Part shown: positions 17,660 through 64,000 of the stretch, piece by piece | How positions within the stretch are numbered: the stretch's first letter is position 1 | Layout of the letters: each line of letters begins with the position of its first letter | Assembly: GCA_029945445.1 (NCBI GenBank) | Contig: JAQSCO010000060.1 | Coordinates: 494,361-558,360 of the forward strand | Direction: 5' to 3' | Length of the DNA stretch: 64,000 bases | Source of the DNA: Lacunisphaera sp. | GTDB taxonomy: Bacteria > Verrucomicrobiota > Verrucomicrobiia > Opitutales > Opitutaceae | The notes under the pieces: model-generated | Told to the model about the DNA's origin: nothing | Seen by the model: only the letters and a program-made list of their open reading frames with translations | Database searches by the model: none | Made by a program: the position numbers and the translations under genes

Positions 17660-19216
17660 CTATTCCTTGGAGGCGGTGCCGTCGGGCTGGCCCTTGGTGT
17701 ATTTGGCCCGCATCGCCTCCGCGATCGCGGGGGCGATCTCCGGGGATTTCTCGGCGACCATGGCCATCGCCTGCTCGACGGAAAGTCCCTTGCGCATCTC
17801 GAGCTCGGCCAGCTTCAGCACGCGGTCGGCCTGCTCGCCGCCCAAGGTGGCGAGGAGGGCCTGCAGGGAGGCGTTGCCGCGGAGCTTCAGCCGCTCGGCC
17901 TCGAGGTGAAGGTCCTGGGCGTCCTCCTGCTTGCGGCCTTCGAGCTTGGCCTGCTTGACGAGCTTGAGGGCCTCGATCCCCTGCCGGGCAATCTCGAGGT
18001 CGGTCTTGGACTGCTCAACCTGCTGGCCCTGCGCGGCGCGAAAGCGCTCGTGCTGCTGCCGCATGTCCTCGGCGAACTCCGCCCGGCGCAGCTCGATGCT
18101 GTTCATGGCGTCGGCGATCTCCGACTGGTGGCGGAGCTTCTGCTCGTCGAGCCGGTTGACGATCTCCGCGCGCCGGGACTCGTAGTCGAGCCGCAGGCCC
18201 TCGAGCGTCGTCTTCTGCTGCAGGGCTTGGGCGAACTGCTTGTGGTCCTCCTCGCGCGCGACGACGTTGAGCCCCATCTCGTGCGTAATGCGGTCGAGGC
18301 TGTCCTTGAGCTGCTGCTCGTCCCGGTAGGCGTCGATCTTGCCCTCGCGCACGGCGTCCTGCAGCCGGCGGTTGGCCTCGAGTTCGCGGGTGAGCCGGTC
18401 GATGTCGCCGAATTTCTTGCGCAGGTCGTCGACGGCGGGGCCGCCGAATTCCGCGAGCCGCACGCCTTCCAGCGCGAGGCCGAAGGGCGCGAGCGCGGCC
18501 TGCAGGCGGCTGGTCAGGTCGCTCTCGATCAGTTCGCGCGCGCTGGCCGCCGAGAGGACGGCGTCGAGCGAATGCTCCTGCGCCGCGGCCTGCATGGCCG
18601 TGCGGACGTCGCCCTGGAACCGCGTGGTCAGGTCGCTGGTGCGGAAATCACTCGCGCCGGCGAGCATGCGCTCGGCGAAAAGCTTGGGGTCGCGCACCTG
18701 GAACAGGAGCCGCAGCCGGGCGTCGACCGCCACCTGGTTCTTGAGGCGGATGTCCTCGAGCATGAAGTCCACCTCGGCGGCGCGGGTGTCGATCAGGATG
18801 GCGTGCGCCTCCTTGCCCTTGTCGAAGCCGAGCAGGCGCGACACGAAGTTGTCGAAGGTGTGGTAGCCGGGCTCGAGCAGGCCGTTGAACTTGCCGTTCT
18901 GGAAGACGAGGCCGACGGTGCCCTCGTCGACCTGCAGGCCGCGGTGGAGCGTGGCGGCGGGGGTCTTGACCTCGACGCGCACGGCGAACTCGTCGGCCGA
19001 GCGGTGCCAGCGGTCGCCGTAGAATTGCTTCTTCTTGCTTGGATCCTGCTCGGTGCCGCACTTCCAGCAGAACTTGGATTCGGCGCCGACCGCGGAGCCG
19101 CACTTGTGGCAGCTGCTCCAGGAATTGGCCGTGGGGCAGCCGCAGGCGTTGCAGTATTCGGCGTCCTTCGAGACGGCCTTGCTGCAGTTCGGGCAGCGTT
19201 GGTTGTAGAAGCCCAT
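17660..19216 (-). CDS. Zinc-ribbon SPFH/band-7 protein
   Basis: 518 aa. The N-terminus has paired zinc ribbons: C-P-N-C ... C-N-A-C and C-H-K-C ... C-W-K-C within the first 55 residues. A SPFH/prohibitin-like region follows (V-D-E-G-T-V-G-L-V-F-Q-N-G-K ... L-E-P-G-Y-H-T-F, about 95-300), then a long charged coiled coil (about 300-430). No N-terminal signal peptide or membrane helix is visible, unlike flotillins. SPFH proteins oligomerise at membranes as scaffolds. It lies in the middle of the kinase operon, so it may organise these kinases at the membrane (inference). Confidence 0.85.
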   Translation of the reverse strand: MGFYNQRCPNCSKAVSKDAEYCNACGCPTANSWSSCHKCGSAVGAESKFCWKCGTEQDPSKKKQFYGDRWHRSADEFAVRVEVKTPAATLHRGLQVDEGTVGLVFQNGKFNGLLEPGYHTFDNFVSRLLGFDKGKEAHAILIDTRAAEVDFMLEDIRLKNQVAVDARLRLLFQVRDPKLFAERMLAGASDFRTSDLTTRFQGDVRTAMQAAAQEHSLDAVLSAASARELIESDLTSRLQAALAPFGLALEGVRLAEFGGPAVDDLRKKFGDIDRLTRELEANRRLQDAVREGKIDAYRDEQQLKDSLDRITHEMGLNVVAREEDHKQFAQALQQKTTLEGLRLDYESRRAEIVNRLDEQKLRHQSEIADAMNSIELRRAEFAEDMRQQHERFRAAQGQQVEQSKTDLEIARQGIEALKLVKQAKLEGRKQEDAQDLHLEAERLKLRGNASLQALLATLGGEQADRVLKLAELEMRKGLSVEQAMAMVAEKSPEIAPAIAEAMRAKYTKGQPDGTASKE

Positions 19217-20263: not shown

Positions 20264-21913
20264 ATGCTCCGTGCCGTCAACAATCCCACCCTCGTCCTGA
20301 TCGCGCCCGGCCAGCCCCGCGCCACTTTCGCGCTCGCCGGGGGCGTGACGACCATCGGCCGGGCGCCGGAAAACATCGTCGTCCTCAACGACGCCTCCGT
20401 CTCGCGCCGCCATGCCGAGATCGAGGTGAGCCCCGACCGCGTGACGCTGCGCGACAACAAGAGCCGCAACGGCGTGCAGGTGAACGGCGTCCCCCGCCGC
20501 GAGGCCGTGCTCTCGCCCGGCGACAGGCTGCTCATCGGCCAGGTCCAGCTCGAGTTCGCCGCGGGCTTTGTCCGGGCCTCCGCCCCGCCCCTGCCGCCCA
20601 AGCCGGGCGACCCGGCTGCCGTCGCGGAAACCCGGCACCACCGCGCCGCCCTCCCCGACCAGCAGCAGGACCGCCATCTCGCCGCGCTCTACCACCTGTG
20701 CTTCCGCGCGACCGACCGCACCGGCGACGCGGAGCAGCAACTGCTCGAACTCCTGCTCGACGCCCTCCGCTCCAAGCTCGCCCAATACTACACCGCCGAT
20801 TGCAAGCTGGCCTTCACCGCCGCCGAGGAGAAGGTCCGCACCACGCCGAAATTCGCGCCCTACCTGCTCGAGAAATTCCAGCAGCTCCCCGAGTCCGCCG
20901 CCTACACGCCGGCCGATCTCGCCCGCTTCCAGCAAAAGCTCGGCGACTGGCACTTCCTCGTCGCGCCGCTCCGCCCCGCGGGCGGCCCGCCCGGCGACGC
21001 CGTGCCGGTCGTCGTGCTGCTGCGTCCGGCCGACTGGCAGGAATTTTCCGCCGGCGACCGCACGCTCCTTAACGCCGCCGCCCGGCTCTGGCCGCGCGGG
21101 CGCGACGCCGGGACCGCGCCGGCCAAGTCCGCCACGCCGGCGAAAGCAACCGCATCGGATTTGCCCGGCCTCATGGGCGACAGCACCGTGATGCAAGCAC
21201 TGCGCATCCGGCTCGACCGCATTGCCGCGACCAAGGCTACCGTGCTCATCACCGGCGAGACCGGTAGCGGCAAGGAGGTCGTCGCCCAATACCTGCACGA
21301 CCACAGCCCGCGCACGAAGGCACCGTTCATCAAGGTCAACTGCGCCGCCATCCCCGCCGCGCTGATGGAGAGCGAACTCTTCGGCCACGCGAAGGGCGCG
21401 TTCACCGACGCCCGCAGTGACCGGCAGGGCAAGTTTCAGCTCGCGCACGGTGGCACGATTTTTCTCGACGAGATCGGCGAGTTGCCCCTCCCCGTGCAGT
21501 CGAAGCTCCTGCGCGTCCTCGAGAGCGGCGAGGTGGAGAAGCTCGGCAGCGAGCGCGCCAGCAAGGTCGACGTGCGCATCCTCGCCGCCACGAACCGCGA
21601 CCTGCGCGCCGAGGTGAAGGCCGGCAGCTTCCGCGAGGACCTGCTCTACCGGCTGGAAGTCGCCAGTGCCCCCGTGCCGCCGCTGCGCGAGCACGCCGCC
21701 GACATCCCGAGCTTGGCAGGGCATTTCCTAAAAACCTTCTGCGCAGAGAACGGCCTCACCCCGCCCGAGTTCGAATCCGCCGCGCTGACCGCCCTGCAAA
21801 AGCACGCCTGGCCCGGCAACGTCCGCGAGCTAAGAAACGTGATCCAGCGCCTCGCGATGGACGCCGACGGATCGATCCTTACCGCCGCCGCCGTGAAGCG
21901 CGCGCTGAACTAG
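20264..21913 (+). CDS. Sigma-54-dependent activator with FHA and GAF-like sensor domains, no HTH
   Basis: 549 aa. FHA domain about 20-95 (T-I-G-R-A-P, then [19 protein letters not shown]), which binds phosphothreonine. A GAF-like helical/sheet region lies at about 130-285. AAA+ domain about 300-535: Walker A G-E-T-G-S-G-K-E, sigma-54-contact loop G-A-F-T-D-A (canonical G-A-F-T-G-A), Walker [13 protein letters not shown] arginine-finger region and W-P-G-N-V-R-E-L. The protein ends at V-K-R-A-L-N, directly after the AAA+ lid, so the usual Fis-type DNA-binding domain is missing. Divergent from the sigma-54-driven kinase operon, it is the likely reader of kinase output. Confidence 0.93.
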
Positions 21914-21914
21914 A

Positions 21915-22053
21915 GTCCTGTCAGGTAAGTTCGTTCATATTGTAGGAGCCTGCTTGCAGGCGATGGCTGCTCCTAATCGCCTGCAAGCAGGCTCCTACAT
22001 CAGTTAACGTGTGAATTGGGCGAATTTTCAGCGGCGAGCTTACCTGACAGGAC
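21915..22053. repeat. Nested palindromic (MITE/REPIN-like) element
   Basis: Perfect 15-bp terminal inverted repeats (21915-21929 and 22039-22053, GTCCTGTCAGGTAAG and its complement) enclose a second perfect 24-bp inverted pair (21941-21964 and 21976-21999) around an 11-nt loop. The inner arm begins TGTAGGAGCCTGCTTGCAGG, in the style of REP sequences. It starts just after the activator stop codon and may also end its transcript. No transposase is nearby. Confidence 0.8.
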
Positions 22054-22379
22054 ACTACGGAATGTTTGCAAAATAGTCTTTCGCACAAGCAAGCCCAGGT
22101 AGGCTGCCCGCTGGCGGGCGCGGTTGGAGCGCGAGCAAGCTCGCTGGCCCACCAAAAAGCGATTTTGCAAGCGCACCTTAGAGCGGTTTAAATTGAATTG
22201 TCGCCGTTTGATTGCCCCCAAAAACCGGGCGCGCACAAGGCGCGCCCCTACGATGGGGCATGTAGGGGCGTGGCTCGCCCGCGCCCGATTCGGCCACGAC
22301 ATTTTTTAAACCGCTCTAAATTGAGTCGCTGAGGTTCGCCGGGCGAGCAGCGAAGGGCCCCGGCGCGACCGAGGCGGAA
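22054..22379. repeat. Gene-free stretch with second palindromic element (22178-22320)
   Basis: No convincing gene. Arms at 22178-22193 and 22305-22320 match at 15 of 16 positions (AGAGCGGTTTAAA inverted). Between them a GC-rich imperfect palindrome is centred near 22250 (GGCGCGCCCCTAC ... GTAGGGGCG). A further short palindrome, GCGAGCAAGCTCGC, is near 22130. The stretch separates the convergent activator gene and hicA and looks like stacked repeat insertions. Confidence 0.65.
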
Positions 22380-22592
22380 TCACAACAACGCTCGGAATTG
22401 TTCCGGCGTCAGGCCGGCCACCTTCGCGATGTAGCCCATGGTGTAGGCGTTGATGACGGTGTGCCGGGGCACCTGCACCAGCACCGCCCCGTTTGAGAGG
22501 GTGATGTGTTTGCCTTGGCGCAGGATCCGAAAGCCGCGCTTCTCCAACACCCGCACCGCATCCTTCTGGCCGATGCCGGGCAGCTTAGGCAT
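22380..22592 (-). CDS. hicA: HicA-type toxin (YcfA/HicA mRNA interferase family)
   Basis: 70 aa, a small double-stranded-RNA-binding-like fold. Family features are K-L-P-G-I-G-Q-K-D-A-V-R-V-L-E-K-R-G-F at the start, the catalytic-His region R-Q-G-K-H-I-T-L, V-P-R-H-T at the middle strand and the C-terminal I-A-K-V-A-G-L-T-P-E-Q-F helix. HicA proteins cleave mRNA and are neutralised by HicB. It starts three bases after hicB and is the last gene of the retroelement string. HicB-before-HicA order occurs in some loci. Confidence 0.88.
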   Translation of the reverse strand: MPKLPGIGQKDAVRVLEKRGFRILRQGKHITLSNGAVLVQVPRHTVINAYTMGYIAKVAGLTPEQFRALL

Positions 22593-22595
22593 AGC

Positions 22596-22805
22596 TCAAA
22601 CCGTCACCGTTTCATGCTGCACGGAACGCACGCCGGCCTCGGCCTCGCTCACGGCGGATTTGGCCTCCTGATACTCGGCGATGGCGTCGCGAATGTTGGC
22701 GAGGGCTTCCTCCCGGGTGGCGCCCTGGGAGCAGCAGCCCGGCAGGCTGTCGCACCACACGGCCCAGCCCTCGTCGGATTCCACCAGCGTGACGCCATAT
22801 CTCAT
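22596..22805 (-). CDS. hicB: HicB-type antitoxin (short form)
   Basis: 69 aa. It has the partial RNase-H-like HicB core: Y-G-V-T-L-V-E-S-D-E-G-W-A-V-W-C-D-S-L-P-G-C, then G-A-T-R-E-E-A-L-A-N-I-R-D-A-I. It lacks the C-terminal helix-turn-helix/RHH DNA-binding domain of longer HicB proteins, so it may not autorepress. Its ATG overlaps the reverse-transcriptase stop codon (ATGA at 22802-22805), which couples its translation to the DGR enzyme. Confidence 0.88.
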   Translation of the reverse strand: MRYGVTLVESDEGWAVWCDSLPGCCSQGATREEALANIRDAIAEYQEAKSAVSEAEAGVRSVQHETVTV

Positions 22806-23860
22806 GCCGGGAACTTAGCGGCCGACCGCGCGGCGTCAAGCGGGGCGGCGAGGCGCCCCCGCGCCGCATGGCCGCGCGCCAGCCCACGAGTGTTGCCCTC
22901 GCGCGCAAACGAGTGCCAGGCCCGCCAGGCGGCCACCCAATCCTGCGGCACCCCGCTCCGCGCCAATCGCCGCCACCGGCGTTCGAACCGCCGCTTGGTC
23001 GCGCCGAGCACTCGCGGCCGCAGCCCGGGCAGAAACCGAAACCCGCAGAACGGCACGCCCTCCCGCGTCGCCAGCAGCCGGCTTTTCGGCTCGGCCAGTT
23101 GCATGCGCAGTTTGTCCATCTCCGCCCGCACCTTTCCGTGCAAGGCCCACAACCGCGCCTTGTCATCCCCGAAAAGCAGCATGTCGTCCGTATAGCGCAG
23201 ATAAGCGCCGTGACCCTCCGCTTCCGCGATCCGGTGGTCAAGGTCATCCAGCAGGAAGTTGCCCCACAGCTGGCTCGTCAGATTGCCGATGGGCAGACCG
23301 CGCGGAAGAGTCGCGGCATCATCCGCAGTCCGAAAGCTGTCGAGGATCCGCCCGATCAATTCCCGCGCGCCCGGACAGGCCACTTCGGCCGCCAGTTTCC
23401 GGCGCAGGATCTCATGGTCGATGGTGGGGAAAAACTTCCGCACGTCGCACTTGAGCACGAAGCGGTGCCGGTTAGTCAACCGGCGGCAGCACTCCCGTGC
23501 CGCCGTCGTGCCTTTGCCGGCTTGGCAGGAGTAGCTGCGGGCGAGGAACCGCCGTTCCAGCACCGGCTGGAGCACGTTGCACAGCGCATGATGCACCACG
23601 CGGTCGCGGTAGGGCGCGGCGGCGATCATCCGTCGCTTGGGTTCGTGGATCTCAAAAAAATGATACGGTCCCGGCCGCCACTCGCCGGCGAGCAGTTCCT
23701 CGCGCAGTTGCACCAGCTCACTCTCACGGCGCAGTTCGAAGGCCTCGACGTCTGGCCGCCGGCTCTTCCGTCGGCGGGCCTTGACGGCGGCCCGCCAGAG
23801 ATTTTCCGGGTCCGCGATGGCTTCCAGGGTGCAGACCTTGCGCCGTTGGCGGGGATTCAT
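22802..23860 (-). CDS. Diversity-generating retroelement reverse transcriptase
   Basis: 352 aa. The RT fingers/palm region runs about 65-280. Catalytic Asp139 is in K-C-D-V-R-K-F-F-P-T-I-D, and the Y-T-D-D box is at 223-226. The diagnostic DGR motif is P-I-G-N-L-T-S-Q at 190-197, where most other bacterial RTs have Q-G-x-x-x-S-P. With Avd, DGR RTs copy the template RNA into cDNA with errors at adenines. The ATG at 23860 overlaps the avd stop (ATGA), which fixes the start; the longer in-frame N-terminus lies inside avd. The C-terminal thumb is Arg-rich (R-R-F-E-R-R-W-R-R). Confidence 0.95.
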   Translation of the reverse strand: MNPRQRRKVCTLEAIADPENLWRAAVKARRRKSRRPDVEAFELRRESELVQLREELLAGEWRPGPYHFFEIHEPKRRMIAAAPYRDRVVHHALCNVLQPVLERRFLARSYSCQAGKGTTAARECCRRLTNRHRFVLKCDVRKFFPTIDHEILRRKLAAEVACPGARELIGRILDSFRTADDAATLPRGLPIGNLTSQLWGNFLLDDLDHRIAEAEGHGAYLRYTDDMLLFGDDKARLWALHGKVRAEMDKLRMQLAEPKSRLLATREGVPFCGFRFLPGLRPRVLGATKRRFERRWRRLARSGVPQDWVAAWRAWHSFAREGNTRGLARGHAARGRLAAPLDAARSAAKFPA

Positions 23861-24210
23861 CGCGCCCCGGCTGACTGTTTCAACCAGCCGCCGGTCATGC
23901 GGCCGGCCTCGTCGAGCCGGGCGCAGGCATGGAAAAGTTGCTGGCGGCTGATCCACGAGCGGGCATGCACCAGCCGCCACAGTGTGCGCATCTCCTCCAG
24001 CTTCAGGTTAAGCGTCTCCAGCGGCGCCCGCTTTTTTTCGGCCGAGGCATAGCGGGCGCGCACGGCGAGCAGCAGGGCGTCGAGCGCCGCGCCGTCGAGC
24101 CGCTGGCCGAAGGTGAACCGCTGGCTCTTCGGGATGGCGGCCGTGCGGTCGAGTGTCCAGCCGGCGATTTCTTCAAGCACGGTGCAGAGAGGTGGAGGAG
24201 GGGTGTTCAT
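23857..24210 (-). CDS. avd: DGR accessory variability determinant (Avd-like four-helix bundle)
   Basis: 117 aa, mostly helical and rich in Arg/Lys. The I-P-K-S-Q-R-F-T-F-G-Q-R-L segment near residue 26 matches the conserved P-K-S-x-R-F-x-x-G-x-R motif of Avd/bAvd and S23-like bundle proteins. Avd forms a pentameric barrel that binds the RT and template RNA and is needed for cDNA synthesis and mutagenic homing. It lies between the template repeat and RT, 184 nt downstream of the template, and overlaps the RT start by four bases. Confidence 0.92.
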   Translation of the reverse strand: MNTPPPPLCTVLEEIAGWTLDRTAAIPKSQRFTFGQRLDGAALDALLLAVRARYASAEKKRAPLETLNLKLEEMRTLWRLVHARSWISRQQLFHACARLDEAGRMTGGWLKQSAGAR

Positions 24211-24394
24211 GGGAAAAAATGCCCGCCGGGACTTTCGTGCCGTGGCCCCGGCATTACCGGCCCCGGCGGGCGCCGCGTATTTTCCCCGTCACCGGGGCGC
24301 AGGGCGGACGGTTAGGTGGCCTCTTGGCTCCGGCCGGACAGGCGGGCGCCCGCCCGGCATCACGCCAGTTCTTCGGTGCGGCTTCAGGCACCTT

Positions 24395-24524
24395 GCGCGC
24401 CGACCCGACGGCGCACACCACGCGAAAACCGATGTTGTTGTTGCGGTTGTCGTTGGTGTTACGGTTGGAGGAAGCGAGGTTGTCACGCTCGTTGTTGTTG
24501 AACGAAGCCCCCCGCAGGCCGGAT
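24395..24524 (-). repeat. DGR template repeat (TR)
   Basis: 130 bp, aligned without gaps to 24670-24799 (constant offset of 275). The two differ at 15 positions, and every one is an adenine on the TR minus strand (5 A-to-G, 9 A-to-T, 1 A-to-C in the variable copy). The TR has 28 adenines on that strand, grouped in AAC codons, so its virtual translation is Asn-rich (F-N-N-N-E-R-D-N, then N-R-N-N-N-I). The last 38 bp on the coding strand (24395-24432) are identical in both copies and lack adenines, as expected of an initiation-of-mutagenic-homing region. Confidence 0.97.
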
Positions 24525-24595
24525 CGGCCGCCCATCCTGCTTCGCTGGCCGGGGGAGACGTGGTCACGCATCCCGGACGCAGCAAATTTTTAATT

Positions 24596-24613
24596 GGCGC
24601 GCTGCCGCGCGCC
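24596..24613 (-). promoter_or_regulatory. GC hairpin with G-R-N-A-type loop downstream of the variable repeat
   Basis: A perfect 7-bp stem GGCGCGC / GCGCGCC has the 4-nt loop GGCA on the coding (minus) strand. Characterised DGRs carry a similar DNA hairpin with a short stem and G-R-N-A tetraloop shortly after the variable repeat, used in target recognition. Here it lies 56 nt past the VR end, farther than in the phage BPP-1 element. No T-run follows on the minus strand, so an intrinsic terminator is less likely. Confidence 0.55.
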
Positions 24614-24666
24614 CCGAAAGGGAAAAGGAAAAAGAACAAAAGGGTAAAGCGTAAGTCGTGCCACCT

Positions 24667-27042
24667 TCAGCGCGCCGACCCGACGGCGCACACCACGCGA
24701 AAACCGACGTAGTTGCTGCGGAAGTCGCGGGTGCCACGGTAGGAGGAAGCGAGGTTGACACGCACGATGTAGATGAACGAAGCCCCCCGCAGGCCGGATG
24801 AACGGTCGCCTACACGCTCCCAGACATTGCCCCCGAGGTCGTAAATGCCGTAACGGTTGGCCGTGAAGCTGCCGACCGGCGCGGTGCGGGCAAATCCGTC
24901 ATTATACCCGTCAATCGTGGCCCAACCCGAATTCCAATCGGCATCCCGAGCCTCGCTGCCCGCATAGTTGCCTGCTCCCCGCGGCGGCGGCCAGTCCCTG
25001 CCCCACGGAAACTCATCCGGGCCCACGGCGGCGTCCCACTCGGCGTCGGTCGGCAGGCGGTATTCCTGATCGGCCGCCAGCCGGCCCTCGCGCCTTTCCT
25101 TCTGGGTCAGCCACGCGCAAAACGCTTTGGCGTCGGCTTCGTTCATTCCCACCACCGGATGCGTCGGTCCTTGGGAAAAACCTGGACTCTTCCAACTGTC
25201 ACCTTGCTGGGCCCAATTGCCGCGCCGCAGGGAATACATGCCCTGCGTGGCGTCATGGCCGGTTTCCTTCACAAAGACCTCAAAATCCTGCACGCGCGCC
25301 TCCCAGATGCAGAAGAGCACACCCGTCCCCGGCACCGGCACGAACTTCTGGCCGAGGGTGTTTTCCCACGGCTGGCCGGGTTGGGGGAAAGTCTGTTTCT
25401 CCAGCTCGGCCGACAGCCGCAGCTCGGTGTTGCGCGCCACCACACCCGAAACCTCGGCTGATTTGTAGCCCTTTTGCTGGAGCGTAAGCCGGTAGCTGCC
25501 CAACTGGGTGCGACCGGTGAAAGGCGTGCGGCCGATTTCCTTGCCGTCCTGCAGGATCGCCGCGCCGGCCGGCGTGCTCGTGATGACCAAGGTCCCCATG
25601 CTGCGCACGAGCGTCACGTCGAGGTCGGCAAAGTCGTTCTCCCTCACCTCCACCTCACCCGTCCACTCTTCGTAGCCGTCGAGCCGGACGCGCACCGGAT
25701 ACTTGCCGAGCTTCTGGTCCTTCAAGGTCAGCGGGGATTTGTCCAACGCGAGCGCACCCACGCGGACCTCGGCGCCGGCGGGATTCGTGCGAATGACGAG
25801 GCCGCCCCGGGCGGCGGCGAGATGCTCGGCGGCCTGCCGCTCCCGCTCCTGCTTCGCCTTGGCCTCGACGGCGGCCTGCTCCTGGACCGTGCGCAACTTG
25901 GCCGCCTCGATTTCCAAGCGCTGTTTCTCCGCCGTGTCTGCGGCGGCCTTCTGCTGCAGCTCCAACCGGGCGACCTCGGCTTTGCGCGCTTGCTCGGGAG
26001 CGTAGGAACCAAAGTAGTAGCCGAGGGCGGCGAGCGCGATGACGCCGGCGGCGAGGGCGGCGTAGAGCGGGGTTTTGGATTTTGGATTTTCGGTTTTAGA
26101 TTTGGCCAGCGGCTCAGCGGGGCGATTCGCCCTACCTGGATCAGCCTTCGTGCTCTTCGTGTCCTTCGTGGTTAATCCCAGCCGCTCCGCCACCTCGCCG
26201 GCGGTTTGCGGGCGGTCCTTGGTCTCCTTTGCGAGGCAGGCGGCGATCGTGGCCTCCCAGGCGGCCGGCACCGGCTCGCCGGCAATCTCGTTCGCCAGCC
26301 TCCGCTCGTTCACCGACACCGGCACCTTGGTCTGCACCTGAGCCAGAATGTTGCCCGTGTGGAACGGCGGCTTGCCGGTCAATAATTCGTAGAGCACCGC
26401 GCCGAGGGAATAGATGTCGTCCGTCACCGCCGGGTCCTCGCCCATCATCTGCTGCGGGCTCATGTAGAGCGGCGTGCCGCTGCTGCCCGCCTGTTTCGAG
26501 ACGCGGGAGACGCTGTCGCTCACGCTGGCGGCAATGCCGAAGTCGGCCACCTTCAGGTCGCCGCGGGCGTCGATCATGAGGTTGGCCGGCTTGAGGTCGC
26601 GGTGAACGATCTGCGCCTTGCCGTGCGCGTAATCGAGCGCCTCGCAAAGTTGCTTCGTCCACACGCCCAACTCCGCCACATCGAAACAACCGCGAGGCTG
26701 CTCGAGCTTGTGCGCCGTCAGCGTGGACCCGGCGATATACTCCATGGAGATGGCGACCGTGCGGGCATCCTGAATAAAGTCGTGGATCCGGATGATGTTC
26801 GAATGCGTCAGGTCGAGACTGCGGCGCGTCTCGCGCTTCATGTCGCGCACGGCCTCGGGATCGAGGGCCACGACCTCGGGCAGGAATTTCATGGCAATGT
26901 CGCGCTCCAACTCGTCGTCGCGCGCGAGCCACACCACCCCCATGCCGCCGCGGCCGAGAATTTTCTTCAGCGTGTAGCGATTGAAAATTTTCTGGCCGGG
27001 CGAGAAGCCTTTGATGGTCGCGCCGAGATCGAGGTCGTCCAT
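24667..27042 (-). CDS. DGR target: membrane Ser/Thr kinase with PEGA repeats and hypervariable FGE/C-type-lectin domain (kinase 4)
   Basis: 791 aa. Kinase domain 23-290: G-R-G-G-M-G 30-35, Lys52, HRDLKPAN 147-154, DFG 167-169, Y-M-S-P-Q-Q 193-198. Membrane helix about 325-345, coiled coil about 350-410, PEGA repeats about 415-480 and 484-548. An FGE-sulfatase/SUMF1-type C-type-lectin domain spans about 560-791 (Y-R-L-P-T-D-A-E-W at 661-669, G-G-N-V-W-E 737-742, G-L-R-G-A-S-F 750-756, G-F-R-V 780-783). Its final 44 codons are the VR. The likely topology puts the variable surface outside the cytoplasm. The ATG at 27042 is chosen because the upstream in-frame ATG lies inside the sigma-54 promoter. 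Confidence 0.96.
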   Translation of the reverse strand: MDDLDLGATIKGFSPGQKIFNRYTLKKILGRGGMGVVWLARDDELERDIAMKFLPEVVALDPEAVRDMKRETRRSLDLTHSNIIRIHDFIQDARTVAISMEYIAGSTLTAHKLEQPRGCFDVAELGVWTKQLCEALDYAHGKAQIVHRDLKPANLMIDARGDLKVADFGIAASVSDSVSRVSKQAGSSGTPLYMSPQQMMGEDPAVTDDIYSLGAVLYELLTGKPPFHTGNILAQVQTKVPVSVNERRLANEIAGEPVPAAWEATIAACLAKETKDRPQTAGEVAERLGLTTKDTKSTKADPGRANRPAEPLAKSKTENPKSKTPLYAALAAGVIALAALGYYFGSYAPEQARKAEVARLELQQKAAADTAEKQRLEIEAAKLRTVQEQAAVEAKAKQERERQAAEHLAAARGGLVIRTNPAGAEVRVGALALDKSPLTLKDQKLGKYPVRVRLDGYEEWTGEVEVRENDFADLDVTLVRSMGTLVITSTPAGAAILQDGKEIGRTPFTGRTQLGSYRLTLQQKGYKSAEVSGVVARNTELRLSAELEKQTFPQPGQPWENTLGQKFVPVPGTGVLFCIWEARVQDFEVFVKETGHDATQGMYSLRRGNWAQQGDSWKSPGFSQGPTHPVVGMNEADAKAFCAWLTQKERREGRLAADQEYRLPTDAEWDAAVGPDEFPWGRDWPPPRGAGNYAGSEARDADWNSGWATIDGYNDGFARTAPVGSFTANRYGIYDLGGNVWERVGDRSSGLRGASFIYIVRVNLASSYRGTRDFRSNYVGFRVVCAVGSAR
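24670..24799 (-). repeat. DGR variable repeat (VR), 3' end of kinase 4
   Basis: Covers the last 44 codons of the target (about residues 748-791), ending next to its TGA. Compared with the TR, 12 residues are changed: 757, 758, 759, 760, 762, 768, 770, 772, 774, 776, 778 and 779. Asn codons of the TR became Ile, Tyr, Ile, Tyr, Gly, Arg, Phe, Ser and Tyr; Glu and Asp became Val; Ile became Val. The scaffold residues (S-G-L-R-G-A-S-F, L-A-S-S, G-F-R-V-V-C-A-V) are unchanged. Confidence 0.97.
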
Positions 27043-27067
27043 GAGTGGGTGGGTGCGCAGATCAAGA

Positions 27068-27083
27068 GGCAAAACCCGTGCCA
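27068..27083 (-). promoter_or_regulatory. Sigma-54 promoter of kinase 4 and probably the DGR
   Basis: Minus strand TGGCACGGGTTTTGCC, a full match to the -24/-12 consensus, 25 nt upstream of the kinase 4 ATG. It could drive target, TR, avd, RT and hicBA as one transcript, since no obvious terminator separates them. Confidence 0.85.
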
Positions 27084-27113
27084 TGGCACGCCGAAAGAGC
27101 CGGACACGGCCGC

Positions 27114-48490: not shown

Positions 48491-51400
48491 TCATTTGCCG
48501 GGGCGCTCGACGGATTCGAGTGTGACGTCGACCACCGCGCCCGCCTCCGCGTTGCTCCCCGCCGGCAGAAACTGCGCGCTGCCGAGATGGGGCGGGATGA
48601 GCAGGCGGATACGACCGCCGGGTTGCAGGAGCTTGAGCCCTTCCTCGAGACCGCCCTTCAAGGCCGGATCCAATCGCTCGGTGCCGCGGCTGGACTCGGT
48701 CAACTGCTTGCCCGCCCGGTCGCTGACCGCGTAGCGGTAATGCACAATGTCACCGTCCTCGGGCGCCCCGCCCGTCCCCTCTGCCAGCATGTGGTAGCCC
48801 AGCGCGGTTTCCGAGAAGGTCATGCCGGTTTCCTCGGCAAACGCCCCAAACAGGATCCGGTTCACGGTCGGGAGCCGATCGAGCCGGAGGATGGCGCCGG
48901 TGGATTGGTCGGTCGCGAAGAGTGAATTTTCGTAGAAGACCAGGCCGCCGATGCGGCCGAAGGTTCCCTCGGGGACCGGCAGGGCCGTCAATTGCCCGCC
49001 GTCGATCGGGCCATACCAGATTTTGTTGCCGGCCCCGGGATCGGCGATGAACACCAGCTCACCGTCGGTCGCCACGGCGCTGGGCGCGACCAGCGGCGCC
49101 CCGCTGTAGCGGGTTTCCAGACCCTCGGCCGTGTGATGCAGCAAGGCCGGCGCGATCACGCCGGCCTTGCCGGTGTCGAGGATCAGGACCCCGCCCGAAC
49201 CGTCGCTCTCGGCCAGATTTAGATGCTCGGTGGCAAAGCCGCCCTCGTAGCGCGCGGCCACCACGGACGTCAGGCCCGTGCCATCCGGGGCGAGCCGGGT
49301 GAGTCCGCCGCCGACCTCGTCGACCGCGTAGAGAAATTCCCCCTCGGCGGTCAGGCCGCTGCCATCGACAATGGGCTGGCCGGACTTTGAGCCGGTGTAG
49401 ATGGCCTCAGGCTTGCCGCTACCGTCCTTGGGCGCCTTCCAGATTTGCGTGTCGCTCACGGGGCCGGAATTCGGATCAATCCAATAGATGTGGTCCCCGA
49501 GCACGGCGACCGCGTTGGGATTGTAGGCCGGATATAACCGGGTCGGCTCCCCGCCCGCGCTGGCGATGCGCACAATCGCCTGGGTGCCATCCTTCATCGA
49601 CGCGCTCGCAAAGAGATGTTCGCCGTCGGACGTGATGTTGCGCGGGCTTTGCGCGATGCTGCCCGGCGCCAACACCGTGGTGATGGTCGGGCGAAACTCC
49701 TCCGCCGCGGCGTCGGGCGATTTTTCAAAGGGTGCCGCGGGCGGCGTCCGCTGCTGGACCGCCTCGGTCAGCCGGGCCAGGCGCTCCCGCAGTTGCTGGA
49801 TCTCGCTCTCCTCGGCCCCGAGTTCCCGGTAACGCTCGAGCCGTCCGGCAATGTCGCTGAGCTGCCCCGCCGTGATCGTGTCGGGCTGGGCCAGCACAAT
49901 GTTGTCGTCCGCGCGCATGCGCTCGAGTTCCTCGCTCCGGTGCCCGTCCTTGCCGTTCGACCACATGATCACGGCGGCGCCCAGCAACAGCGCGCCGATG
50001 AAAGCCAGCAGGATGAACCGCTCCTTGCCGCTCGGCTGGCCGGAACCGGCGGCCAGCGGCGCCGCCGTTGCACTGCTCGCCGGAGCGGCGGCGGGAACAT
50101 CGGCCGGCACCGGCGGGGTGCCGAGGGCCGGGGCCAAGGCGACGCGAAAGCCCGTGTGGCTGGCGGGCACGGTGAGATTGCTCCAGTTGCGGCAGGCCGC
50201 GCGGCAGTCCCGCGCTTTGCCGTTCCAGGCACCGCCGCGGCTGATCCTTGACGTGCCGGTACCCGGGCCCGCCGGGTCGGCCACCGGCGTGCCGGCATAT
50301 TTTCCGTAGCAGTCGAAGCACCATTCCCAGACGTTGCCGAGCATGTCGTGCAGGCCCCACGCGTTTGGCTGGCGCGTCCCCACGGCGCGCGGGCCGGCAT
50401 TCCCGCCCGGATACTGCTTGTCGGCCCAGTCCGTGGTGTTCCACCCGCGGCCGTTGTAACCCACGCTGCTGTTCCCGCCATACCACGCGATCGCATCGAG
50501 CACCGGGGCGTTGTGCTCGCCGTGGATTTCCATCGGCCCGCCATAGGTGGCCTGGTCCGTGCCCGCCCGGCAGGCGTATTCCCACTGCGCCTCGGTGGGC
50601 AGCGCATACTCATAACCCGCGGGCAGGCGGCCGGCCGCTTTTTCCAGGGCGGTGAGTTTCTTGGCAAAGCGGATCCCGTCCTCCCACGTGACGAAATGCA
50701 CCGGCAGGAAATCCTCCTCGCCGCCCAGCCGGCTGCCGGGATCCGCATCCTTGGTGGAGCCCCAGTAGTCGCGCAAAGTCTGGTCCTTGCCGCCCAGCCG
50801 GTAAAGCCGGTCATCCTGCAGAGCGCGCCGGACCAGGTCGCGGAGCGAGGTCTTCATGACGGCGCGCCACTGGCCGTAAGTCACCGGCGTGCGGCCCAGC
50901 CAAAAACCGCGCGTGATTGTCACCGGCGTGCGCGGGCCCTCCTCGTCATAGCCGCCCGGCTCGCCCTCGGGGCTGCCCATCGTGAACTCCCCGGGCTTGA
51001 GCCACACCAGCGGCAGCCCCGCGCCGGACGGCAGCGCGGCGCGCCAAGGTGCGTCCGGCGTCGGCGCGGCCGGATAGGAAGTTTCGTCCCCGGCCACCTG
51101 CGCCGCGGCCGCGGCATCGCCCGCCGGCACGTTGACGATGGGGGTCAGGCCGACGCGAAAGCCAAAGGCGTTGCGCCGGGCCCCGGGCGCGTTCTGGTTG
51201 CGGCCGGCAGTGCGGCAATCGCGGGCCTTGCAGTTCCAGCCGCCGCCGCGCACGACGCGGGTGCTGCCCATGGTGCCGCCGATCGGGTCGGTCACCGCGC
51301 CGCCGGGATATTTCGCGTAGAGATCGAGGCACCACTCCCAGAGATTGCCGAGCATGTCGTGCAGGCCCCACGGGTTGGCGCCCTTGAGCCCCACATTGCG

Positions 51401-52990
51401 CTGGCCGGCCTGGCCGCCCGGATACTGCTTTTCCTTCCACGCCGCCGTGTCCCAGCCCTTGCCGGCGAAACGCACGCTGCTGTTCCCGCCATACCACGCG
51501 ATGGCGTCCAGCACGGGGGCGTTGTGCTCGCCGCGAATCTCCATTGGCCCGGCGTAGGTGGCGCCGCGCGTGCCGGCCCGGCAGCCGTATTCCCACTGGG
51601 CCTCGGTGGGCAGGTTGAACTCGAAGCCTTCGGGCAGCCGGCCGGCGGCCCTTTCCTGCTCCGTCAGCCTGCGACAGAATTCCCGCGCTTCCGCCCAGCA
51701 GACGTAATACATCGGCGCGTCATCGCCGGCCGGACCGACCATGACCGCGGGATCGGAGCCGCGCTCGACGCCCCAGGCGGAGCGCAGGGTCTGCATCTTG
51801 CCGTCCATTTCGTATTCCGTGTCATCCTCGATCCCGAGCCGGGCCTGGTCGGCGAGCGACGTGCCCATGACCGCGCGCCACTGGGCATGCGTCACGAGTT
51901 TGCGTCCCAGCCAGAAATCGCGGCTGAACGCCACGCGGGTGCGCGGGCTCTCATCCGTATAGCGCCCGGGCTCGTCGTCGGGGCTGCCCATCAGGAATTC
52001 GCCGGCCGGAATGGCCGCCAGCTCGAGCCGCAGGCCGCCCGGCAGCTCGACCACGCGCACCTCGCCGCTCGCCTTCGCCACCGGCAGGTCCTTTTCCACC
52101 GACGGCGCGACGCTCGCTCCGCCGATCCGCTGGGCCACCTCGCGGGTGCTTTGCGGCCGCTGCGCGGGATTCTTCGCCAGACAGGCGGCGAGCAACTGCT
52201 CCCACGCCTCGGGGATCGGTGCGCCGGTCACCTCCAGGTCGCGGCGGCGGCTCGCCAGGCTCGGGGGCGTGACCGTCTGCACCTGCACGACCAGGTTGCC
52301 GGTGTGGAACGGCGGCCGGCCCGTCAGCAATTCGTAGAAGGTCGCCCCGAGGGCGTAGATGTCGTCCGTCACCGCCGGTTTTTCACCCAGCATCTGCTGC
52401 GGGCTCATGTAGGCCGGCGTGCCCGAGCTGCCGCCGCCCTTGGCCGAAACGCGGGAGATGCTGTCGCTGATGCTCCGGGCGATGCCGAAATCCGTGATCT
52501 TCACGCGGCCGTGCCCATCGAGCATGATGTTGGCCGGCTTCAGGTCGTGGTGCACGACCCGCGCCTGGTTGTGCGCATAGTCGAGCGCCGTGCACAGCTG
52601 CGCCAGCCAGTCGGTCACATCCGCCGCCTCGAAACAACGCTCCGGCCGGTCCACGCGCAGCTGCGCCAGCGTCACGCCGTCCACCGCCTCCATCGCGATC
52701 GCGGCCATCAGGTGGTCCTCGAGGAAATCGTGGATGCGGACGATGCCCGGATGGGTGAGCTTGCGCGCGCGCTTGGTCTCGCGCTTCAGGTCGTCGAGCG
52801 CCGTGGCGTCGAGCTTCACGATCTCGGGCAGGAATTTCAGCGCGAGTTCCTCGTCGAGCTTCTCGTCGTGGGCGAGCCACACCACGCCCATGCCGCCGCG
52901 GCCGAGGACTTTTTTCAACAGGTAACGGCCGAAGACCTTCTGGCCCGGGGAGAAACCCTTGATCGTCGCGCCTAGGTCGAGGTCGTCCAT
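48491..52990 (-). CDS. Giant Ser/Thr kinase with two FGE domains, beta-propeller and FKBP domain (kinase 13)
   Basis: 1499 aa, the largest gene. Kinase domain 23-290, but with H-H-D-L-K-P-A-N in place of H-R-D; DFG is intact. Two FGE-type domains lie at about 308-620 and 660-955 (each with L-P-T-E-A-Q-W-E-Y and D-M-L-G-N-L/V-W-E-W-C). The only membrane helix is at about 988-1008, after the FGE domains. A coiled coil, a beta-propeller-like region (about 1100-1390, D-H-I-Y-W-I-D-P-N) and an FKBP-type prolyl isomerase domain (about 1397-1499) follow. The FGE domains would be cytoplasmic here, unlike in kinases 4 and 9. Confidence 0.9.
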   Translation of the reverse strand: MDDLDLGATIKGFSPGQKVFGRYLLKKVLGRGGMGVVWLAHDEKLDEELALKFLPEIVKLDATALDDLKRETKRARKLTHPGIVRIHDFLEDHLMAAIAMEAVDGVTLAQLRVDRPERCFEAADVTDWLAQLCTALDYAHNQARVVHHDLKPANIMLDGHGRVKITDFGIARSISDSISRVSAKGGGSSGTPAYMSPQQMLGEKPAVTDDIYALGATFYELLTGRPPFHTGNLVVQVQTVTPPSLASRRRDLEVTGAPIPEAWEQLLAACLAKNPAQRPQSTREVAQRIGGASVAPSVEKDLPVAKASGEVRVVELPGGLRLELAAIPAGEFLMGSPDDEPGRYTDESPRTRVAFSRDFWLGRKLVTHAQWRAVMGTSLADQARLGIEDDTEYEMDGKMQTLRSAWGVERGSDPAVMVGPAGDDAPMYYVCWAEAREFCRRLTEQERAAGRLPEGFEFNLPTEAQWEYGCRAGTRGATYAGPMEIRGEHNAPVLDAIAWYGGNSSVRFAGKGWDTAAWKEKQYPGGQAGQRNVGLKGANPWGLHDMLGNLWEWCLDLYAKYPGGAVTDPIGGTMGSTRVVRGGGWNCKARDCRTAGRNQNAPGARRNAFGFRVGLTPIVNVPAGDAAAAAQVAGDETSYPAAPTPDAPWRAALPSGAGLPLVWLKPGEFTMGSPEGEPGGYDEEGPRTPVTITRGFWLGRTPVTYGQWRAVMKTSLRDLVRRALQDDRLYRLGGKDQTLRDYWGSTKDADPGSRLGGEEDFLPVHFVTWEDGIRFAKKLTALEKAAGRLPAGYEYALPTEAQWEYACRAGTDQATYGGPMEIHGEHNAPVLDAIAWYGGNSSVGYNGRGWNTTDWADKQYPGGNAGPRAVGTRQPNAWGLHDMLGNVWEWCFDCYGKYAGTPVADPAGPGTGTSRISRGGAWNGKARDCRAACRNWSNLTVPASHTGFRVALAPALGTPPVPADVPAAAPASSATAAPLAAGSGQPSGKERFILLAFIGALLLGAAVIMWSNGKDGHRSEELERMRADDNIVLAQPDTITAGQLSDIAGRLERYRELGAEESEIQQLRERLARLTEAVQQRTPPAAPFEKSPDAAAEEFRPTITTVLAPGSIAQSPRNITSDGEHLFASASMKDGTQAIVRIASAGGEPTRLYPAYNPNAVAVLGDHIYWIDPNSGPVSDTQIWKAPKDGSGKPEAIYTGSKSGQPIVDGSGLTAEGEFLYAVDEVGGGLTRLAPDGTGLTSVVAARYEGGFATEHLNLAESDGSGGVLILDTGKAGVIAPALLHHTAEGLETRYSGAPLVAPSAVATDGELVFIADPGAGNKIWYGPIDGGQLTALPVPEGTFGRIGGLVFYENSLFATDQSTGAILRLDRLPTVNRILFGAFAEETGMTFSETALGYHMLAEGTGGAPEDGDIVHYRYAVSDRAGKQLTESSRGTERLDPALKGGLEEGLKLLQPGGRIRLLIPPHLGSAQFLPAGSNAEAGAVVDVTLESVERPGK

Positions 52991-61079: not shown

Positions 61080-62771
61080 ATGCCCCGGGCCTGCCCTACC
61101 TGCCAAAGCGCCGTTTCCCCGCGCAGCCGTTTCTGCCCTACGTGCGGTGGCGCGCTGCCCGCCAGCGAGGAAACCTCCGTCGCCACCGCGCTGTCCAATC
61201 CTTCTTCTGCCGGCGGGCCCCAGTCCATTTCCACCCCCGCGCCGCTTCCGGCCACCGCGTCCGTTTCCTCCGTCGCCGCGCCGTCCTCTTCCGCGCCGGC
61301 GCCGTCCGTCTCTTCGGCCAGCCCCGTCTCCGCTCCGCCGGTGGCCGCCTCGCTCTCGTCCGCCCCGGTCTCGACCGCCCCGCTGCCCAAGGAAAAGTCC
61401 GCGTCGCCCTTCGCCCCGCGCCGCACCCGCGCCCCGTTCGGACCGGAGCTCTGCCCCATCGAGGTGGCGGTGAATTTCTCCCGCATGCTCGTGGCCGGCC
61501 ACGCCACCACCATGGAATTGCGCGTGGGCAACACCGAGCCGCAATCGCTGGAGCACCTGGAGATCAGCCTCGAGTCCCGCGGTTTCAGCGACCCGGCGAC
61601 CGCCACCTGGCGGCGGCTCGTGCCGGGCCAGCCGCCCGCCAAGATCATCGAGGTCGAGCCGGCCCGCGCCGGAAATTTCGTCCTGCAGGTGGCCGCCACC
61701 TGGGAAAGCGGCGGGCAGCGCTTCGCCTACCGCGGCCAGCGCGCCATGCGCGTGCTGCAGGCCCCGGAGTCCGGCAACATCCAGATCAGCATCGGTGACA
61801 TCCAGGGCAACGCCGGCACGGGCGCCAACCAGGGCCTCGGCGCCGACTACGGCGACGTCAGCATCTCCAATCTCCTCGGCGGCATCAAGACCCTCAACGA
61901 CCTCCTCGAGCTGGAACTGCCCGAAAAATTTCACGCCGTGCCGCTCGAGCTCGACTATGAGGTCAGCCGGAAGGCCTTTGACCTGCACAAGCGGCAGATC
62001 GGCGAGGCCCTGCGCATTCCGCCCGCGTTGCTCGGCACCGTGCAGCCCGGCACGATCTGCACGTTCGAGCCGGCCGACGGTTCCGCCCTGCCCGTCCCCT
62101 TCCGCCTCGTGGCGCGGCCGCAGCTCCGCCTTGGGCGCGCCCGCGCGGAGGCCGACTTCGTCGCCTGGCTGCTCCCGCGCAATCCGGCGAACGACGAGCG
62201 CTCGATGCGCGTGGGCAAGATCCATACGGTGGCCGAGACCCGGCCCGAGGGCCTGCTCATCCGCGACAACGCCAGCGCCAACGGCACGGTGCTCGACGGC
62301 CAGATGCTCGACCAGAGCGGCACGGTGCTGGAGCGCCGCGGCCGGCTCGTCCTCGGCGGCGCGGTGGAGGTGGAGATTGCCCGCTTTGACTCCAGCCGCC
62401 CCGGCGAGCCCCCGATCACCAATGCGCGCAACTGGAACGGGCCGGCCCACCAGGCGCCCCGCCTGCGCGGCGCCGCCCGCTGCGAGGTGCTCGCGACGGA
62501 GCCGCAGCCGCTCAACACCGCCTGGATTTTCACCGACGCCGCCTTCGGCACGAGCCGGTCGAACCCGATCGTGCTCGAGTGGACGGAGCTCGCCGAGATC
62601 CAAGGCCGCTTCCACCACTACCGCGGCTGCTTCTGGCTGGAGAACCTGGCCGAGAACGGCGTCGTGCGCGTGGACAGCCATTCATTGCACCCCGGCGAGA
62701 TCGTCCCGCTCGCCACCGGCCAACACGTCGCCCTCGGCAGCCGCACCTTCCGGCTGAAAGTGGAAACCTGA
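61080..62771 (+). CDS. Zinc-ribbon protein with FHA-like domains
   Basis: 563 aa. The N-terminus is a C-P-T-C ... C-P-T-C zinc ribbon, followed by a Ser/Ala/Pro-rich disordered stretch to about residue 105. A strand-rich middle domain follows (about 120-260), then an FHA-like domain about 345-440 (L-R-L-G-R-A, then L-I-R-D-N-A-S-A-N-G-T-V-L) and a second about 470-563 (H-Y-R-G-C-F-W-L-E-N, then R-V-D-S-H-S-L-H-P-G-E). FHA domains bind phosphothreonine, so it is a plausible cytosolic reader or adaptor of the kinase array. It is divergent from the CsgG-like operon. Confidence 0.85.
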   Translation: MPRACPTCQSAVSPRSRFCPTCGGALPASEETSVATALSNPSSAGGPQSISTPAPLPATASVSSVAAPSSSAPAPSVSSASPVSAPPVAASLSSAPVSTAPLPKEKSASPFAPRRTRAPFGPELCPIEVAVNFSRMLVAGHATTMELRVGNTEPQSLEHLEISLESRGFSDPATATWRRLVPGQPPAKIIEVEPARAGNFVLQVAATWESGGQRFAYRGQRAMRVLQAPESGNIQISIGDIQGNAGTGANQGLGADYGDVSISNLLGGIKTLNDLLELELPEKFHAVPLELDYEVSRKAFDLHKRQIGEALRIPPALLGTVQPGTICTFEPADGSALPVPFRLVARPQLRLGRARAEADFVAWLLPRNPANDERSMRVGKIHTVAETRPEGLLIRDNASANGTVLDGQMLDQSGTVLERRGRLVLGGAVEVEIARFDSSRPGEPPITNARNWNGPAHQAPRLRGAARCEVLATEPQPLNTAWIFTDAAFGTSRSNPIVLEWTELAEIQGRFHHYRGCFWLENLAENGVVRVDSHSLHPGEIVPLATGQHVALGSRTFRLKVET

Positions 62772-62816: not shown

Positions 62817-64000
62817 TCACGGAACTGAACTGAGGGCGAGGCGGAAGCCGAGGAAGGTGAAGCGGAGGCCCGGCTCATCCCCGCCGCGGCCAGCGGAGCG
62901 GCAGTCGTTGGCGGAGTCGCCCCAACTGCCGCCGCGGAAGACGCGGAAGGCGCCCGAAGCCGCACCAGTGGGGTCGGGCACGCTGCCGCCGGCCAGGTGA
63001 TCTCGATACCAGTCGGCGCACCATTCCCAGACGTTGCCATGCATGTCGGCCAAGCCCCACGCGTTGGCCTGTTTCTGTCCGACCGCGTGCGTGGTCTTGC
63101 CGCTGTTGCTCTCATACCAACCCATGGCATCGAGATTGCCGGCGTAATCGCCCGTCGTGCCGGAGCGGCACGCGTATTCCCACTGCGCCTCCGTCGGCAA
63201 AGTGTAGCCATACCCCTCGGGCAGCCTCCCGGCTGCCCGCTCCCGCGCCGACAGCTTCCGGCAATACTCCATCGCCTCGTCCCAAGACACCTGCTCCACC
63301 GGCCGGTCGTCTCCTTTGAACTCAGAGGGATTACTGCCCATCAAGGCTGCCCACTGTGCCTGCGTCACCTCTGTCTTGCCCAGCCAGTAGGCTTTCGTGA
63401 GAGGGACCTGCGTCACCGGCTTTTCATTAGCGTCGCCATTCGCGCTGCCCATCTGGAACGTTCCCGGCGCGATGGGCTGCATGACGAGAGAAAGGTCGGG
63501 GATCGTCCAAGCCTGGCCAGTCTCGGGGCCGCGGAATTTTTCCAGTTCAGCGGTCAGCCGCAGTTCGGTGTTGCGCGCCACCTCGCCCGAGACCTCGACT
63601 GACTTGTATCCCTTTTGCTGGAGCGTGAACCGGTAGCTGCCCAGCTGCGTGCGGTTGTTGTAGGGCGTGCGGCCGATTTCCTTGCCGTCCTGCAGGATCG
63701 CGGCACCCGCCGGCGAACTCGTGATGACCAATGTGCCCATGCTGCGCACGAGCGTCACATCGAGATCGGCAAAGTCGTTCTCCTTCACCTCGACCTCGCC
63801 CGTCCACTCCTCATAACCCTCGAGCCGCACCCGCACCGGATACTTGCCGAGCTTCTGGTCCTTCAAGGTCAGCGGGGATTTGTCCAACGCGAGCGCGCCC
63901 ACGCGGACCTCGGCCCCGGCGGGATTCGTGCGGACGACGAGGCCGCCGCGCGCGGCGGCGAGCCGCTCGGCCGTCAGCTTTTCTCGTTCCTGCTTCGTCT
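62817..64000 (-). CDS. Kinase-type paralogue, 3' part: PEGA repeats and FGE domain (gene 16, truncated by window edge)
   Basis: The frame stays open to base 64000, so the N-terminal kinase domain, if present, lies outside. The visible part starts in a coiled coil, then PEGA repeats (L-V-V-R-T-N-P-A-G-A-E-V-R-V-G, then T-L-V-I-T-S-S-P-A-G-A-A-I) nearly identical to those of the DGR target, and an FGE-sulfatase domain to the end (F-Q-M-G-S-A, L-P-T-E-A-Q-W-E-Y-A-C, M-H-G-N-V-W-E-W-C, R-G-G-S-W). It is the closest relative of kinase 4 in the window but lacks its VR sequence. Confidence 0.85.
   Translation of the reverse strand, partial: TKQEREKLTAERLAAARGGLVVRTNPAGAEVRVGALALDKSPLTLKDQKLGKYPVRVRLEGYEEWTGEVEVKENDFADLDVTLVRSMGTLVITSSPAGAAILQDGKEIGRTPYNNRTQLGSYRFTLQQKGYKSVEVSGEVARNTELRLTAELEKFRGPETGQAWTIPDLSLVMQPIAPGTFQMGSANGDANEKPVTQVPLTKAYWLGKTEVTQAQWAALMGSNPSEFKGDDRPVEQVSWDEAMEYCRKLSARERAAGRLPEGYGYTLPTEAQWEYACRSGTTGDYAGNLDAMGWYESNSGKTTHAVGQKQANAWGLADMHGNVWEWCADWYRDHLAGGSVPDPTGAASGAFRVFRGGSWGDSANDCRSAGRGGDEPGLRFTFLGFRLALSSVP

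Follow-up and report, generated by a model that had tools for sequence, protein, structure and literature searches.

Here we report a complete diversity-generating retroelement (DGR) on the minus strand at positions 22380–27084 of a 64,000-nucleotide stretch of Lacunisphaera sp. DNA (assembly GCA_029945445.1, contig JAQSCO010000060.1, positions 494,361–558,360), hereafter the window, which sits on a 558-kb contig. The element consists of a Ser/Thr kinase target gene ending in a variable repeat (VR), a template repeat (TR), avd and a reverse transcriptase (RT) gene, followed by HicB- and HicA-like open reading frames (ORFs) (Table 1). The RT and Avd are predicted to rewrite the VR from the TR with random errors at adenines, likely altering the binding face of what is predicted to be a sensor kinase spanning the membrane, and we consider this reading probable. 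A complete DGR had been proposed in an earlier, sequence-only reading of this DNA, and every element named there is present in the interval, including the ATGA overlaps between avd and RT (23857–23860) and between RT and hicB (22802–22805), both read directly from the sequence. The target gene likely starts at 27042 (MDDLDLG), which gives 791 aa and so equals database record P0121 in length, and not at 27084; target residue numbers below follow the 805-aa reading from 27084.

Table 1. Features of the DGR locus and of the contig-end gene in the window
Feature	Position	Strand	Basis
DGR target, Ser/Thr kinase – hydrophobic stretch – PEGA x2 – FGE/CLec-like end with VR	24667..27084	-	Pfam, motifs, hydropathy
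Variable repeat (VR), directly before stop codon	24670..24799	-	Mismatches to TR at TR adenines only
Template repeat (TR)	24395..24524	-	Direct-repeat search, adenine bias
7-bp GC hairpin, GGCA (GRNA-type) loop	24596..24613	-	56 nt after VR
avd, 117 aa	23857..24210	-	Pfam bAvd E 4e-11; PHROG Avd 3e-18
DGR reverse transcriptase, 352 aa	22802..23860	-	RVT_1; phrog_1423 6.2e-88; tree
HicB-like ORF, likely passenger	22596..22805	-	Weak Pfam and PHROG matches; recurrence
HicA-like ORF, likely passenger	22380..22592	-	HicA_toxin 27.1 bits vs cut-off 27.0; recurrence
PEGA-FGE gene cut by contig end, VR-like at 62825-62949	62817..63998	-	Pfam; adenine-biased differences to G091 and G200 TRs

The direct-repeat search recovered the claimed VR and 130-bp TR as a 130-nt pair with 88% identity. 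On the gene strand, all 15 mismatches (A>T 9, A>G 5, A>C 1) fall on adenines of the copy at 24395–24524, which identifies that copy as the TR. Fifteen of its 28 adenines are changed, compared with none of the 102 other sites (hypergeometric p = 2.2e-12); VR differences at non-adenine sites, for which the sequence-only reading had suggested a check, are thus absent from the 130-nt core. In a looser scan that stretched the pair to 136 nt, 17 mismatches were at adenines and 4 elsewhere; those beyond the original 15 lie outside the core. Twelve VR codons differ from the TR, and the residue is altered in every one of them, while the final 38 nt of the two repeats are identical and the stop codon follows immediately. 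Adenines are held by 16 of the 43 TR codons (11 of them AAC or AAT), a stop codon is reachable from none, and the proteins reachable from the TR by adenine changes were computed at about 8.9e15. A genome search with the TR for further VRs finds only the TR itself and this one VR.

The RT contains both the PIGNLTSQ and the YTDD motifs noted earlier, and matches Pfam RVT_1 (E = 7.7e-20) in addition to the PHROG family in Table 1. Its best PDB match is 8ub7, a chain named ‘Reverse transcriptase’ (E = 7e-36), which we take to be the BPP-1 RT. The Avd-like gene is likewise confirmed by a bAvd match above the Pfam cut-off and by the PHROG family ‘Avd protein of DGR’; searched by sequence against the PDB, Avd gave no real match. 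The RT was placed in a tree built by a quick method from 90 sequences (58 genomic, 20 from viral contigs, 2 from phages and 10 labelled non-DGR), with SH-aLRT as the only support value. The non-DGR label means that no adenine-biased pair was detected in the stretch, and some of the other 80 RTs likewise showed no such pair. The window RT groups with those of loci L027–L034 in a 9-row clade (SH-aLRT 99). The BPP-1 RT falls on their side of the tree, from which the 10 same-family RTs without a detected pair are separated (SH-aLRT 100), so that the window RT, as the earlier reading had expected, belongs within the DGR clade. Judged by the titles of their records, the members of the 9-row clade are verrucomicrobial except for the metagenome-assembled genomes L028 (‘Bacteroidetes’) and L029 (‘Planctomycetota’).

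A viral origin was considered and rejected: the best viral-contig RTs, among the best 80, are 31–44% identical to the window RT, compared with 59–66% for L027–L034. The claim that no phage genes lie nearby agrees with two Pfam scans, of 10 and 9 window proteins, a subset of the ORFs, which returned 0 phage structural proteins. As a separate observation, some related RT proteins (P0025, P0034, P0059 and P0119) run on into a C-terminal, N-rich, TR-like segment; the TR, apparently translated within the RT frame there, would explain the FGE matches on RT proteins.

The target unites a kinase domain and a VR-bearing CLec/FGE end in one protein, with Pfam domains Pkinase (37–293), PEGA (two stretches) and FGE-sulfatase (599–798). 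The kinase motifs GRGGMGVV, HRDLKPAN and DFG occur at residues 44, 161 and 181, respectively. The last 247 residues, modelled from 29 sequences with a mean pLDDT of 88.5, are predicted to adopt the FGE fold, and the top PDB folds returned by Foldseek are formylglycine-generating enzymes (best E = 3.6e-11). At rank 35 stands Treponema denticola variable protein 1 (PDB 2y3c; E = 1.1e-7, profile match 1.1e-28), presumably a DGR product, which shares the variable-domain fold but has no kinase in the matched chain of 294 residues. The VR lies in the C-terminal part of this domain, which Pfam, the model and Foldseek identify as being of the CLec/FGE type. The VR residues 763–798 include 0 cysteines; we assume that the catalytic cysteine pair of FGE lies in the stretch that matches them. 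Variability across homologues, rather than strains, was assessed with one genome per species. In 25 of 120 listed homologues, some of which may have no DGR of their own, entropy averages 2.94 bits over those 16 VR codons whose first or second TR position is an adenine, versus 1.16 bits over the 27 others (p = 1.4e-7); the rest of the FGE domain outside the VR averages 0.98 bits in these homologues. A hydropathy peak at residues 340–358, preceded by lysines, lies between the kinase and the PEGA-FGE part, and the variable end is therefore predicted to be extracytoplasmic.

Several observations weigh against a working DGR that diversifies a membrane sensor. The top NCBIfam model for the RT is a group II intron RT (120 bits, far under the cut-off of 300), and the NCBIfam Avd model scores avd at 72.5 bits, under its cut-off of 80. 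The hydrophobic stretch at 340–358 is moderate, with a mean of 1.82 over 19 residues in the hydropathy profile; cyanobacterial DGR targets are mostly reported as cytosolic in the available part of PMC7517822; and the difference between the window and G204, a genome of the same genus described below, would by sequence comparison fit gain of the DGR here or its loss there alike. The intron-type score might suggest that the locus is no DGR at all, but an ordinary gene-end duplication beside a group II intron-like RT. The adenine-only differences between TR and VR together with the RT tree rule out such a duplication or a non-DGR RT, Avd beside the RT further opposes it, and we give this explanation next to no credence. 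The location of the target is a different matter. Cyanobacterial DGRs have Ser/Thr kinase–CLec targets, for which either ligand-gated autoinhibition or substrate choice was proposed (PMC7517822, available part), and on the latter model a cytosolic target here would use its variable end to pick the protein substrate of the kinase instead of sensing an outside ligand. The cyanobacterial kinase targets for which this was proposed are mostly predicted to be cytosolic, whereas in the window a hydrophobic stretch with lysines before it separates the kinase from the PEGA-FGE part; we regard a cytosolic target as improbable and favor a membrane sensor.

The region between VR and TR contains a hairpin that was examined against the BPP-1 type. 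The hairpin after the VR matters in BPP-1, and phage DGRs have a GC stem of 7–10 bp and a 4-nt GRNA loop at 4–34 bp from the VR (PMC3240598, available part). The 7-bp stem and GGCA loop found here fit this type, but the distance of 56 nt from the VR does not. It is one of 3 such GC-rich hairpins on both strands of the window, and a 7-bp hairpin follows 0 of 9 VRs of near relatives. In the wider set, hairpins of at least 7 bp occur downstream of the VR in 22 of 67 cases, compared with 3 of 67 upstream controls and 9 of 67 after the TR, and GRNA loops in only 2 of 67. Rfam at the gathering threshold returned nothing in the window. In 22200–24900, terminator-like sites number 3 against 3.2 expected, and a scan that covered the sigma-70 type only found no sigma-70-like promoter. 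The missing promoter would suit a DGR that is genuine but silent, its VR rewritten in the past and its cassette now merely inherited. Against this, TR, VR, avd, RT and target are all open and intact, and the identical 38-nt end and the clean non-adenine sites would both have been blurred by old decay; we find a silent element unlikely.

For an active element, the route would follow that of BPP-1. Acting with Avd, the RT would copy the TR RNA and make errors at adenines; the resulting cDNA would then take the place of the VR in the 3' part of the kinase gene by retrohoming, which is established for BPP-1 and predicted here by analogy. The variable end, outside the cytoplasm according to its hydropathy-based topology, would bind ligand and pass the signal to the kinase. 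Because the cassette is complete and intact-looking and the VR ends a kinase gene in an array, the cell likely keeps changing what one predicted membrane sensor can bind, the present activity of the DGR being a prediction from sequence.

Our comparison with related loci reveals an unusual gene order. The genome-contig scan confirmed at least 520 relatives, of which the best 80 were kept, and order was surveyed in 62 loci, window included, with a pair of at least 9 adenine changes near an RT. The order VR-TR-avd-RT was claimed to differ from the VR-avd-TR-RT of BPP-1; the BPP-1 record bears this out, and the order is rarer than claimed, the window being the only one of the 62 loci to show it on one strand. 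Five others (L027, L028, L030, L033 and L034) have the same order with avd on the opposite strand, and the remaining loci show VR-RT-avd-TR (19), VR-avd-RT-TR (14), VR-avd-TR-RT (10) or other arrangements (13). Besides these five, the close relatives L027–L034 resemble the window in the kinase-FGE targets of L028 and L029, and differ in that the TR follows the RT in L029 and L031. We also observed that 6 of these 8 near relatives (L027, L028, L030, L032, L033 and L034) have avd and RT on opposite strands in a head-to-head arrangement; inspected by eye in L027 and L034, the start codons of the two genes are separated by a few to about 20 nt, so that a promoter would have little space there.

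Among 61 related targets scanned, window included, 60 carry FGE, 27 NACHT, 5 a protein kinase, 5 caspase and 3 PEGA domains, and TIR domains are also found, indicating that a variable FGE end has been grafted onto many signalling domains. The NACHT, caspase and TIR partners are what a conflict or antiphage system would carry; in such a system the variable end would detect invaders, and arrest or death would be set off by the kinase, perhaps aided by HicA. Such systems have been proposed as conflict systems (PMC10907252 and PMC7159879, available parts), and FGE-type DGR domains occur in conflict systems (PMC7159879, available part). On the other side, the array kinases, with their FHA, Band 7 and PEGA partners, look like a family of general signalling proteins, and matches to HicB and HicA (phmmer, E up to 0.01) are rare, each found beside no more than 4 of the 94 related RT loci, window counted, so that we hold a conflict role to be doubtful and retain the sensor reading. 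HicA and HicB occur together at 3 of the 94 loci (window, L069 and L054). The same scarcity makes hicBA likelier a passenger than a working part of the DGR, to judge from sequence, and a working role is not borne out. Both ORFs are themselves weak matches, with HicA barely above its cut-off (Table 1) and the HicB-like ORF scoring 25.9 bits against 27.0 for HicB_lk and 28.2 against 27.9 for DUF7387. No DGR–HicB link appears in the titles or abstract openings of papers naming both.

The kinase array in which the DGR was said to be embedded is real. A genome search with the target kinase domain gave 20 matches at E ≤ 1e-20, 15 of which, target included, lie in the window, all on the minus strand; the nearest copy, 84% identical, belongs to the same array. 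The 15 copies extend over 9906–59313 and share a common N-terminal motif. Neighbouring genes encode FHA-sigma54 (20264–21913), Band 7/zinc-ribbon (17660–19216) and FHA (61080–62771) proteins, and a weak FGE-like match (35%, E = 1.5e-6) lies at 51323–51796 within the large kinase ORF 48491–52990.

The RT is sparsely distributed. Matches at 1e-20 occur in 2 of 21 genus genomes, namely the source genome and G200 (a different RT, 36%), and in 18 of 200 family genomes, source included, several being the non-DGR RTs of the tree; matches reaching 1e-80 occur in 2 of 387 phylum genomes, source included. In G204 the flank is kept (SPFH 75%, lipoprotein-like 61%, FHA-sigma54 68%), and kinases resume after about 220 bp. 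In the 38 kb of its contig C20 and the 20 kb of C47 that were examined, neither RT nor avd nor the DGR target was the best match of any segment at E 1e-15, and the whole genome gave no RT match at 1e-20. The target-like kinases of G204 match the target up to residue 549 at best, and the kinases of the two genomes are not one-to-one. In a likely history, one kinase of the array acquired the cassette and, with it, an FGE end of the DGR type.

A possible second DGR trace is found at the contig end, where the truncated PEGA-FGE gene (Table 1) would have any kinase part beyond the contig. Compared with the TR of G091 (L109), the segment 62825–62949 differs at 21 of 27 adenines and at 17 of 98 other sites (p = 8e-9); for the TR of G200 (L224) the counts are 22 of 29 adenines and 16 of 109 other sites (p = 7e-10). 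A control with a VR in the place of the TR gave a weaker yet not nil bias (9 of 14 adenines, 24 of 111 others, p = 0.0018), and the L109 TR gave 19 of 27 adenines against both the L110 target (35 of 98 others, p = 0.0013) and the L224 target (13 of 98 others, p = 2e-8). A search for a TR of this segment in its own genome yielded only matching stretches of 22 and 26 nt, and a search for a second RT with the L109 RT returned the window RT alone. From its sequence, 62825–62949 looks like an orphan VR from another DGR lineage; alternatively, the gene could be a relative of DGR targets that never had a cassette here. A bolder and rather unlikely proposal is that the array forms a DGR-served receptor repertoire, in which two DGR lineages in turn hypermutated two sensors, with heads swapped and mutated on a shared kinase chassis, which would make it the bacterial equivalent of receptor-kinase families in immunity or self-recognition.

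Kinase-CLec targets are already known from cyanobacteria; what is unusual here is the one-strand order and the kinase-array setting. In the available part of PMC7517822, the cyanobacterial systems share the N-end kinase, the VR in a C-terminal CLec-type domain, the cellular setting and kinase paralogues in the genome, whereas the window differs in its mostly verrucomicrobial RT clade, its PEGA domains and hydrophobic stretch, and its 15-kinase array. The DGRs of Thiohalocapsa PB-PSB1 are also cellular, with kinase-domain and FGE-type targets, but several occur in that genome as opposed to one cassette here (PMC10907252, available part). The BPP-1 DGR (NC_005357) likewise has VR, TR, Avd and RT on one strand and, apart from gene order, differs in its phage tail target and in an RT 33.5% identical over 66%. 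Our literature searches found nothing joining diversity-generating retroelement with protein kinase and FGE-sulfatase, or diversity-generating retroelements with Opitut, and the available parts of PMC8144416 and PMC10053308 do not mention kinase or FGE.

If active, the element would make it possible to address directly what a self-mutating kinase detects, with the 14 neighbouring kinases as built-in fixed controls and the G204 flank without a DGR as a comparison state. The locus also suggests that an established family of kinases can take up DGR-type sensor ends, and that the putative orphan VR of this array may be the remnant of a second DGR lineage. Finally, a perfect 24-nt inverted repeat (21941–21999) within a larger inverted pair (21911–21933 and 22035–22057) lies between the FHA-sigma54 gene and the DGR and may be a small dispersed repeat.

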